Positions 3,216 through 7,100 of a DNA stretch of 37,412 nucleotides are shown here, one piece after another. Location of the stretch: IMG/VR virus record IMGVR_UViG_3300025891_000006, positions 1 through 37,412 of that record. One strand, written 5' to 3'. The stretch is from a virus. Under the pieces are notes generated by a model, which was given only the letters and a program-made list of their open reading frames with translations, ran no database searches and was not told the DNA's origin. Each line of letters starts with the position of its first letter. The stretch's first letter is position 1. The translations under genes were made by a program, and so were the position numbers.

Positions 3216-3641
3216 GTGACATTCACCATCCCTTTCGACGCCCCCACAATCGCCCTGATGTTGTTTGGCAGTATCCTTGGGGTAAATCTGTTACTGTGGG
3301 TGATATTCATCATGTACGCCAAGTTTGGAAGCCTACGACCGCACCTGCAAGCCATCATCGGCTGGGTAGACAATTACTGCGATGATTACGAGGACCCGGA
3401 GAAACGGAAAGTCGCTGTGGCCAATATCAATGAACTGTTGGGATGGCGAAAAATATTCATTCCTACATTCCTGATCGGCTGGGCGGTCGATGCCGAAGTC
3501 TATTATCTGCACAAGATTTGCCCGGACGTTCATACGGCCGCAATCCAACAAATCACGGCGGAGGGCGTGCAGGCGGTTGAACAGATAACCGCTGCCGGGG
3601 TGCAGGCAGTGAAGGACGCAAGCAAAGAGGCGAAGCCATGA
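3216..3641 (+). CDS. Holin candidate
   Basis: 141 aa from GTG 3216, with GAGGTG about 6 nt upstream. There is a hydrophobic segment at residues about 12-35 (IALMLFGSILGVNLLLWVIF) and a second apolar stretch at about 75-95 (IFIPTFLIGWAVDAEVYYL). The C-terminus carries an imperfect repeat (ITAEGVQAVEQ then ITAAGVQAVKD) and a basic end. Two membrane segments plus a charged tail, directly upstream of a methyltransferase and then an amidase, fit a phage holin. It does not match a holin family I can name with confidence. It overlaps the next gene by four bases at CATGATGG. Confidence 0.5.
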   Translation: MTFTIPFDAPTIALMLFGSILGVNLLLWVIFIMYAKFGSLRPHLQAIIGWVDNYCDDYEDPEKRKVAVANINELLGWRKIFIPTFLIGWAVDAEVYYLHKICPDVHTAAIQQITAEGVQAVEQITAAGVQAVKDASKEAKP

Positions 3642-4147
3642 TGGAATTTGACTACATAAAATGTCCATTACATCGTTATACCTTTTCAGTCCGACCTATC
3701 AGAGAATGGGTAGAAAAGAACTGTGAAGGGAAAACCCTTAATTTATTTGCAGGGAAGACAAAACTAAATATTGATGAAGTGAGAAATGATCTTGATAACG
3801 AAGCATTATGTGATTACCACGTAGACGCTTTGGAGTTTGTTAGAACGTGGGGCGGGGATAGCTTCCAAACTATTTTACTTGACCCTCCGTATGCTTATAG
3901 AAAAAGCATGGAAATGTACAAAGGGAATGTGTGTAGTCCCTTTCGGCAACTTAAAGATGAAATTGTCAAAATCCTTTCCGTAGGTGGCAAGATAATAACT
4001 TTTGGATACCACTCTAACACAATGGGTGCAAGCAGGGGATTCGTGGTTGAAAAAATCTGTTTGCTTTCACATGGGGGCGCAATCCACGACACAGTTGTTT
4101 CTGTTGAAAGAAAAATACAGGATATTAAGGAGGCGCCGAAAGTATGA
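3638..4147 (+). CDS. DNA adenine methyltransferase-like protein (DPPY)
   Basis: 169 aa. A class I SAM-dependent methyltransferase core is visible: NLFAGKTKL at residues about 32-40 in the place of motif I, and LLDPPYAYRKSM at about 82-93, where DPPY is the catalytic motif IV of amino-methyltransferases. It lacks an obvious target recognition domain and is short. The gene is clearly richer in A and T than the genes on both sides and sits between the holin candidate and the endolysin, joined to each by overlapping start and stop codons. This looks like an inserted accessory gene that was then translationally coupled. A DNA target is most likely; another nucleic acid substrate cannot be excluded. 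Confidence 0.65.
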   Translation: MMEFDYIKCPLHRYTFSVRPIREWVEKNCEGKTLNLFAGKTKLNIDEVRNDLDNEALCDYHVDALEFVRTWGGDSFQTILLDPPYAYRKSMEMYKGNVCSPFRQLKDEIVKILSVGGKIITFGYHSNTMGASRGFVVEKICLLSHGGAIHDTVVSVERKIQDIKEAPKV

Positions 4148-4674
4148 AAATCTGCATTGATGCCGGACATAGCGGCCCCGTCGAACCGGGAGCCTGCGGC
4201 AACGGACTCCGCGAATCAGACATAACCCTGTCGGTATCCAAACTGCTGAAGGACAAATTAACCGCTGCGGGGCATGATGTTTTGCTAACCCGCAATGGCG
4301 ACGTGAACAACGATTATTTGACATGGCGCGCTGAATTCGCCAACGACTGGGGCGCGGATATCTTCATTTCAATTCACTGCAACGCGTTCGGTGAGCCTTC
4401 GGCGCATGGCGCGGAGTGCTGGATAGCCCAACGGCACAGCGACAATTCAGAGCGGCTGGCGCACTGCATTTTAGACAGGTTGGCCAATCAGATGGACCTC
4501 GCCGACAGGGGCGTAAAGCAGTCTAATTTTACGGTGCTGACGGCTACGGATATGCCCGCCGTGCTGGTCGAACTGGCGTTTATCTCGAATCCGGTCGAAG
4601 CAGGGATGCTGGCAAACAATCAGGATGACTTTGCGCAGGCCATCACTGACGGGGTGGCGGCATTCGAGGCATGA
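4144..4674 (+). CDS. N-acetylmuramoyl-L-alanine amidase endolysin (Amidase_3)
   Basis: 176 aa, the size of a bare catalytic domain. It would cut the amide bond between N-acetylmuramic acid and the stem peptide. The zinc-site elements of the Amidase_3 family are in order: IDAGHSG near the N-terminus (His9), the ESD Glu at about 24, ISIHCNA at about 76-82 (His ligand), and VLVELAFISN near 139-148 (catalytic Glu). No signal peptide and no separate wall-binding domain are present, so release depends on a holin; single-domain endolysins are typical of phages of outer-membrane hosts. The ribosome binding site AAGGAGG lies inside the end of the preceding gene. The TGA overlaps the start of the next small gene. 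Confidence 0.92.
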   Translation: MKICIDAGHSGPVEPGACGNGLRESDITLSVSKLLKDKLTAAGHDVLLTRNGDVNNDYLTWRAEFANDWGADIFISIHCNAFGEPSAHGAECWIAQRHSDNSERLAHCILDRLANQMDLADRGVKQSNFTVLTATDMPAVLVELAFISNPVEAGMLANNQDDFAQAITDGVAAFEA

Positions 4675-4817
4675 ACTTCACCGCCTGCGAAACCTGCAAG
4701 GCCGAAAACAAGGAAACCAAGTGCAGGGATAACTGCATGATTTGGGGATGCTTGAAATACTTGAAATGGATGGGAAATGCCGAAAGGAAAGGGGATGATA
4801 GGGATGATCAAAATTAA
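4671..4817 (+). CDS. 48-aa Cys-containing protein
   Basis: ATG 4671 overlaps the endolysin stop as ATGA and the frame runs to TAA 4815-4817. Near the N-terminus it has CETCKAENKETKCRDNC, a C-x2-C-x8-C-x3-C pattern, followed by WGCLKYLKW and an acidic end. It resembles the small zinc-binding phage proteins found elsewhere in this window. The function is not known. Confidence 0.5.
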   Translation: MNFTACETCKAENKETKCRDNCMIWGCLKYLKWMGNAERKGDDRDDQN

Positions 4818-5034
4818 GTGGTTGTATGTTCGACACCCATTTTTTTTCATAAGTGAATTGAACCGCAGGTGGAAATGCGTGACAGCCATTGAGGATAACT
4901 GTGACGCGCAGGACGCATTGCAAGATGTTTATATCAAGCAAAGCGGCAAGCAAAAGCATGAGATGAACTGTGCGGTTCATGGCCCCTATGTTTACTGTCC
5001 GATGCCTTGCGATTGTAAAGGAGAAAGAAAGTGA
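4795..5034 (+). CDS. Small Cys/His protein of unknown function
   Basis: 79 aa from ATG 4795, which has AAAGGA 5 nt upstream. ATG 4777 and ATG 4804 are in-frame alternatives. The C-terminal third carries C-x4-H-x6-C-x3-C-x-C (in the segment NCAVHGPYVYCPMPCDC), compatible with one metal site. It overlaps the previous small gene out of frame by 23 bases, and its TGA sits inside the GTGAATG start region of the spanin-like pair, so the three are likely coupled. No family recognised. Confidence 0.45.
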   Translation: MIGMIKIKWLYVRHPFFFISELNRRWKCVTAIEDNCDAQDALQDVYIKQSGKQKHEMNCAVHGPYVYCPMPCDCKGERK

Positions 5035-5438
5035 ATGAAAAATATAAGCCGTATCTTATTTATATTGGCGTTGCTCTGCTTGTGTTCGGCGCCGGCTTCT
5101 GGCTACGCGGCTACCTATACAATGACGCAGGAACAATTCAGCGAATGGGAGTCGCTCTCGGAGAGGCAGACGCAAATAACAAACGAATCACAGCAGAGAG
5201 GGATAAGCTCCAGCAGCTTAATCTCGGCCTTACAGACGAAAATAACCGAAGCAAACAAATCAGTGAGCAGCTTAGAAAGTACAGTGAAGAACTTGCAGTC
5301 CAGCTTGGCGAAGTCCGGGACTATGTTGCAGGAATCGAACGCAATAATCGTGCAAATGAAGCTGGACTTGCTGAATCAGCAGAAATTAATCGACGAACTG
5401 GAAACCTTATTGGCGAAGTTGAAAAAACAGCGAAGTAA
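5031..5438 (+). CDS. Inner-membrane spanin-like protein (Rz-type)
   Basis: 135 aa from GTG 5031, about 7 nt after AAAGGAG. The topology is that of an i-spanin: a short cytoplasmic N-terminus, one membrane helix at residues about 8-26 (YLIYIGVALLVFGAGFWLRG), then more than 100 residues of polar coiled coil (KRITAERDKLQQLNLGLTDE and on to LIGEVEKTAK) that would lie in the periplasm. It directly follows the lysis genes. Its whole length after the fourth base is also read in the +1 frame as the next gene. Known spanins (lambda Rz/Rz1) also overlap out of frame. The call rests on topology, position and the overlap, not on a sequence family. Confidence 0.65.
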   Translation: MNEKYKPYLIYIGVALLVFGAGFWLRGYLYNDAGTIQRMGVALGEADANNKRITAERDKLQQLNLGLTDENNRSKQISEQLRKYSEELAVQLGEVRDYVAGIERNNRANEAGLAESAEINRRTGNLIGEVEKTAK

Positions 5439-5571
5439 GAGATTCGGAATCGGCCCATACGTTTCAACGGTGGGTGGACTGATTAACGTGGGCGGGTTAC
5501 TTAAGATCGGCTCGCTGATTGTTTTCGGAGGCGCAGACGAAGTAGGGGTAAGTTACATCTACGAGTTTTAG
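5035..5571 (+). CDS. Exported outer-membrane spanin-like protein overlapping the previous gene
   Basis: 178 aa from ATG 5035, only four bases after the start of the preceding gene and in the +1 frame. Residues 1 to about 26 are a clean signal peptide (ISRILFILALLCLCSAPAS, with a possible Ala-x-Ala cleavage after GYAA). There are Cys residues in the signal peptide but no good lipobox. Residues about 35-135 are polar coiled coil. The last 40 residues change character: RFGIGPY, Gly-rich apolar stretches, and a final GVSYIYEF, which looks like beta strands ending in an aromatic residue as in outer membrane proteins. I infer an o-spanin equivalent anchored by its C-terminus instead of a lipid. The C-terminal 45 residues extend past the overlap. 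Confidence 0.6.
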   Translation: MKNISRILFILALLCLCSAPASGYAATYTMTQEQFSEWESLSERQTQITNESQQRGISSSSLISALQTKITEANKSVSSLESTVKNLQSSLAKSGTMLQESNAIIVQMKLDLLNQQKLIDELETLLAKLKKQRSKRFGIGPYVSTVGGLINVGGLLKIGSLIVFGGADEVGVSYIYEF

Positions 5572-5606
5572 CACAAACAGCACGTCTATATTGAGTAGCA
5601 CATGAT

Positions 5607-6698: not shown

Positions 6699-7100
6699 AT
6701 GAAGAAGCTGACACTTGTTTTAGCCATTGCCATCCTGCTGAACGCATCAACCGTTTTCGCCACGAACTGGATTCTGACCTCGCAAAACTCTGATGGCAGA
6801 TTCTACTTCGACGGCGACACTATCGTCCACATGGTCAACCGAAACAACGTAGCCGTAACTACGGGATGGGTGGACTTCATTGCACCTGACGGCATGGCGG
6901 TTATGTCGTTTAACACGATCAGAGACGCTGACTTAGCTTTCTACAAAGGGAAAACCTGCGTATATTATCCGTCAGGGGTTAAGTCAGGATGTAAGAACTT
7001 TGAATACGAAGGGCTTAAGGCAACAAACTATCGGTCGGTGCAAGGTATCACGTTTATTGAAATGGTCAACTGGAACCGGAACGACGGGTGGGTATTGTAA
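6699..7100 (+). CDS. Secreted or periplasmic protein with signal peptide
   Basis: 133 aa from ATG 6699 with GGAGAGG about 8 nt upstream. Residues 1-21 are a typical Sec signal peptide (MKKLTLVLAIAILLNASTVFA, cleavage after VFA). The mature part is about 112 residues, rich in aromatic and beta-forming residues, with two Cys (CVYY and GCKNF) that could form a disulfide. It looks like small host exported proteins rather than a virion protein, and it sits in the early operon after the antirepressor. A cargo gene acting in the envelope is a fair guess; no family recognised. Confidence 0.65.
   Translation: MKKLTLVLAIAILLNASTVFATNWILTSQNSDGRFYFDGDTIVHMVNRNNVAVTTGWVDFIAPDGMAVMSFNTIRDADLAFYKGKTCVYYPSGVKSGCKNFEYEGLKATNYRSVQGITFIEMVNWNRNDGWVL

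Follow-up and report, generated by a model that had tools for sequence, protein, structure and literature searches.

A gene pair with almost coincident starts as a candidate spanin lacking a lipobox in phages of the Negativicutes

Background

The best known counterpart of the locus reported here is Rz/Rz1 of phage lambda, where the lysis cassette encodes a coiled-coil protein of the inner membrane together with an exported partner read from its +1 frame. Rz1 is a short lipoprotein nested within Rz. In LysB/LysC of P2 and other overlapped two-component spanins the o-spanin also lies in the +1 frame and ends downstream of the i-spanin. The unimolecular spanin gp11 of T1, which is likewise proposed to bridge two membranes, is a single lipoprotein that has a membrane helix at its C-terminus. 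Kongari et al. (PMC6139136) defined o-spanins by their lipobox and found that most embedded ones start at 0.4-0.5 of the i-spanin; other anchors that could serve o-spanins, e.g. an OMP, were left out of that survey. A 2025 survey (PMC12596118) applied a lipid-box filter as well and reported spanins to be absent from phages of Gram-positive bacteria.

The two frames described below, termed A and B, resemble Rz/Rz1 in all the shared features just named, but B starts at about 0 of A instead of within it, is longer than A, helical and without a lipobox. Like the o-spanins of the P2 type B extends beyond its partner; unlike them it lies over A for approximately 85% of its length and has no lipid anchor. 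The difference from T1 gp11 is that there are two proteins, neither of which shows a lipobox where its signal region ends, so that lipobox and C-terminal membrane helix are not combined in one protein. No earlier description of such a pair was found in the open-access literature searched, and nothing relevant came up there on spanins of Negativicutes or of diderm Firmicutes.

Organisation of the lysis region

The window, i.e. the whole stretch of DNA that was analysed, is a viral contig of 37,412 bases with podovirus-like structural genes. Its features of interest are listed in Table 1.

Table 1. Features of the lysis region and of the two overlapping frames (window coordinates)
Feature	Position	Strand	Characteristics and basis
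Holin-like membrane protein	3216..3641	+	Weak PHROG holin match (0.009)
Endolysin, Amidase_3	4144..4674	+	Pfam PF01520 (9e-52); PHROG endolysin (2.3e-58)
Shine-Dalgarno sequence AAAGGAG, common to A and B	5017..5023	+	Sequence; layout alike in L042 and many relatives
ORF A	5031..5438	+	GTG start, 135 aa; i-spanin-like, N-terminal membrane helix and coiled coil, predicted periplasmic
ORF B	5035..5571	+	ATG start, 178 aa, +1 frame; predicted exported coiled-coil partner, o-spanin-like, without lipobox
Signal peptide of B, type I, ~residues 1-25	5035..5109	+	Sequence; type I-like motif in relatives
Long helix of B, residues 32-136, ~16 nm	5128..5442	+	AlphaFold2 with 74-sequence alignment
C-terminal tail of B beyond the overlap, ~44 residues, proposed membrane anchor	5439..5571	+	Sequence; pLDDT ~50

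The initial annotation had proposed two frames opening at nearly the same point behind one ribosome binding site, the second frame beginning four bases after the first and being the longer. This layout was found as described: the starts are interlocked in GTGAATG (GTG 5031, ATG 5035), and the single AAAGGAG is spaced 7 nt from the GTG of A and 11 nt from the ATG of B.

Several further open reading frames lie nearby. A DNA-methyltransferase-like ORF with a DPPY motif (3638-4147) is found within the lysis cassette and separates the holin-like gene from that of the amidase. An ORF of 85 aa (4777-5034) encodes five Cys, has no meaningful family match and shares 4 nt with the start of the pair. A protein of 133 aa with a signal peptide (6699-7100) follows the early regulatory genes and matches no family.

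The linkage of A and B to holin and endolysin genes, as expected of spanins, extends to the relatives. The endolysins encoded upstream of the pair belong to unrelated families (GH25, Amidase_2, Amidase_3 and M15), and several of these families occur directly upstream. The holin-like protein of the window is 37-41% identical to proteins encoded upstream of the pair in the Negativicutes loci L099 and L108. A role of A and B in lysis is strongly indicated.

Relatives and their distribution

Used as single-protein queries, A and B of the window found no matches in phage, viral and genome collections, and the DNA pattern of the start region found none either. A B profile of three sequences gave no matches in viral contigs, and named phages were likewise negative in tblastn with three related B sequences and one A sequence as queries. 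The relatives were first reached only through the neighbouring amidase and the portal protein. With the amidase as query, genomes of Negativicutes were found, among them a Sporomusaceae genome (locus L042) with the same layout after the amidase: two ATG codons at 5600 and 5604 are interlocked in ATGAATG behind one GGGAGG. A phage related by its portal protein (62% identity; L088/L089) carries the pair with starts further apart.

B of L042 matched 65/380 genomes of Negativicutes. Local tblastn missed true relatives and was replaced by a profile search, in which a profile of 74 B proteins at a threshold of 1e-8 matched 111/380 Negativicutes genomes versus 9/341 of Clostridia; the spread within Negativicutes was counted by genomes only. 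The nine Clostridia matches were no stronger than 3.8e-11, were single-framed and, in eight cases, lay inside ORFs of 384-482 aa. The scan of viral sequences worked with a subgroup profile, the full set of B proteins being too diverse for it. The initial annotation had suggested that phages of diderm bacteria be searched, and this yielded approximately 100 relatives, nearly all of them Negativicutes prophages together with a few viral contigs, with A open over at least 70% of B. Its suggestion that the pair, given a diderm Firmicute host, would be an unusual spanin type holds in that the proteins are spanin-like and lack a lipobox, but the pair is a class-wide family and not a one-off. Starts across the family were inferred by a heuristic; by this measure B begins 4 nt after A in 29/74 loci, at -2 in 9 and at 16 in 8, most of the others having distances of up to 61 nt.

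Two genomes carry four copies of the pair each (L042, L092, L094 and L095 in G024; L106, L130, L131 and L133 in G110), probably in several prophages. One contig labelled Caldisericales (L045) carries a prophage end whose layout is almost the same as in Negativicutes, and is probably mis-binned. In this locus and in L016, L018, L041 and L051, which are other Negativicutes prophages, a single protein of 209 aa replaces the pair directly after Amidase_3. It has an N-terminal membrane helix, a coil and a C-terminal segment ending in HVWRF/Y (AlphaFold2 confidence was low) and may perform the same task on its own.

Negativicutes are Firmicutes with an outer membrane. The relatives of A, B and the holin-like protein place the host of the window, as far as can be inferred from them, in this class. 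The restriction of the relatives to Negativicutes agrees with the outer-membrane host expected for a spanin, and the diderm Firmicute host suggested in the initial annotation is borne out as the clade to which these relatives point.

Coding capacity of both frames

A and B are both genes. When the B protein of the window was held fixed and synonymous codons were randomised, the A frame stayed open in 0.9% of trials; with the A protein fixed, the B frame stayed open in 0/1000. Over the family the same null predicts 1.1/74 open A frames and 0/74 open B frames, figures for which no joint p-value is claimed because the loci are related. Among 78 non-redundant loci including the window, the -1 frame of B, i.e. 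A, was in fact open across 70-100% of B (median 376 nt), whereas the third frame was broken (longest open run, median 92 nt). B was shortened and apparently decayed in two of these loci, L118 and L167. In a further 26 loci (six from viral contigs and 20 weaker matches within the class) the A frame was open over more than 80% of the matched stretch in 25 and over 76% in the other one; the viral-contig locus L185 and L105 seem to be one and the same prophage. Homologues in which only one frame is kept open, named at the outset as evidence against the pair, did not occur among the 104 loci examined.

Constraint on the two frames, which the initial annotation had also proposed to measure, was assessed from differences at the three codon positions of B between close pairs, chosen so that no member is in two pairs. 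In the overlap there were 206/260/354 differences at positions 1/2/3 over 1866 codons, in the tail 37/25/100 over 301 codons (p 1.2e-5). Within the overlap the silent position of B is restrained, and the silent position of A, changes at which always alter B, is freer. Both frames are therefore constrained inside the overlap and one frame beyond it. In addition, leave-one-out family profiles from which the window and L089 had been omitted singled out A (1e-13) and B (1e-12) among the 312 six-frame ORFs of the window.

It might be argued that only one of the genes is real and that the other frame is open by chance, since coiled coils use codons that avoid stops when read in the shifted frame. 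For an individual member the recoding indeed gives a chance openness that can reach 13%. However, every locus is two-framed, both frames score by profile and both are constrained, and the coiled coils of the nine Clostridia look-alikes are accompanied by a second open frame in 0/9 cases. With simulation and controls against it, this explanation is extremely improbable and was dropped.

Properties of the two proteins

A of the window has an N-terminal hydrophobic segment (KD19 mean 1.87) followed by a coiled coil, in accordance with the i-spanin topology read from it initially. An N-terminal membrane helix and a periplasmic domain, the hallmarks of an i-spanin, are thus both predicted. Across the family A has a median length of 127 aa, with a membrane helix in 72/74. 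A of the window matched an Rz-like spanin PHROG at 6e-4, and A proteins of several members matched such PHROGs weakly. PHROG 18860, a family of unknown function, matched 27/72 A proteins (best E 3e-52) and appears to be the A half of the pair. B is not covered by it. No Pfam family, PHROG or named phage record was found for the B family, whose gene has apparently always been passed over in gene calling.

B proteins of the family have a median length of 145 aa and a type I signal motif in 74/74. As the initial annotation had said of the window, B has no good lipobox: none was found in B of the window, and a strict lipobox occurs in 3/74 B proteins, each time inside the hydrophobic core, so that a credible one is present in none. 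By this feature B differs from the o-spanins of the Rz/Rz1 type. AlphaFold2 predicts one helix of about 105 residues in B of the window, with pLDDT mostly above 94. Signal peptide, coiled coil and a Gly/aromatic tail, all noted earlier, can be recognised in B, but the proposed beta segment is visible in composition only.

The tail is the only part of B encoded outside the overlap and, being free of a second frame, is the natural candidate for an anchor. In the window it comprises 42-44 residues, is rich in Gly and aromatic residues and ends in YIYEF. The C-terminal beta anchor that had been suggested found no structural support: the structure prediction proposed for this part gave no strands in AlphaFold2, at a pLDDT of about 50, and strand-like amphipathicity of the long tails did not exceed that of shuffles. 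This reading was given up. Long tails of this kind (~44 residues, Gly/aromatic-rich) are present in 3/74 only, namely the window, L156 and L170. Typically the tail is short and hydrophobic, extending a median of 22 aa past the stop of A, with a longest uncharged run of mostly 11-16 residues and Lys/Arg at the end in 69/74. To our knowledge such a short tail is not a known outer-membrane anchor.

Predicted absence of a lipid anchor, and the LolA pathway

The lipoprotein carrier LolA was absent in 200/200 Negativicutes genomes, while the E. coli and Caulobacter controls responded. Negativicutes have been described as lacking both LolA and LolB (PMC5007114). A B protein without a lipid anchor fits hosts without LolA, whose absence may account for B not being a lipoprotein.

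It could be asked whether B is nevertheless a lipoprotein with an unusual lipobox, and hence a classical o-spanin in extreme overlap. Unusual lipoboxes such as AWAC exist (PMC6139136), and a Cys is found at residues 19-29 in 49/74 B proteins. A third of the members lack this Cys and have Ala or Ser near the cleavage site, and together with the position of the few strict lipoboxes and the lack of LolA this makes a lipoprotein very unlikely. If B is an exported partner without lipid, its tail might still act otherwise than by anchoring. A cationic hydrophobic tail that disrupts the outer membrane in the manner of a disruptin would explain the terminal Lys/Arg as well as uncharged runs that are short for a normal membrane helix, yet it leaves the long Gly/aromatic-rich tails of the window, L156 and L170 unaccounted for, and a free peptide needs no strict pairing with a membrane-anchored coiled coil; we regard it as unlikely. 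The same hydrophobic tails with positive C-terminal charge could instead re-enter the inner membrane (N-out, C-in), a topology mentioned for a possible i-spanin by Kongari et al. (PMC6139136), in which case A and B, both in the inner membrane, would act as a joint complex in regulation or in the timing of the holin and form no bridge. KD17 exceeds 1.6 in only 17/74 tails, however, and the confinement of the pair to Firmicutes that bear an outer membrane argues for a role at that membrane, which renders this topology distinctly unlikely.

Proposed mechanism

We consider it likely that Negativicutes phages employ a spanin-like device in lysis, of which A and B each form one half, and that B is held without lipid, probably by its tail. 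As predicted from sequence, A would reside in the inner membrane and extend its coiled coil into the periplasm. For B, sequence and model indicate Sec-dependent export, cleavage by signal peptidase I and one long helix of periplasm-spanning length. The two proteins may bind each other via their coiled coils and bridge the periplasm, the C-terminal tail of B holding it at the outer membrane. After removal of the wall by the endolysin, the complexes would bring the two membranes together and fuse or break them, as proposed for Rz/Rz1 of lambda. Where the starts lie 4 nt apart behind a single ribosome binding site, the amounts of A and B would be tied together. By this predicted working the pair would be a spanin variant, standing outside the Rz/Rz1 type since B does not qualify as a lipoprotein.

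Conclusion

On balance, though with less assurance, we favour the view that this is a class-wide phage spanin whose outer half lacks a lipid anchor because the host lacks a LolA route, and whose C-terminal tail is exchangeable. The gene of the outer half would lie almost entirely over that of the inner half, starting at nearly the same point, and for this reason have been missed by gene callers and lipobox surveys. How phages of Firmicutes such as Veillonella or Sporomusa breach the outer membrane is a question to which no answer was found in the open-access literature, and the pair provides a defined candidate. B is also a candidate for a lipid-free outer-membrane anchor. Moreover, the locus is an unusually deep example of overlapping frames that both remain protein-coding, with starts that almost coincide.
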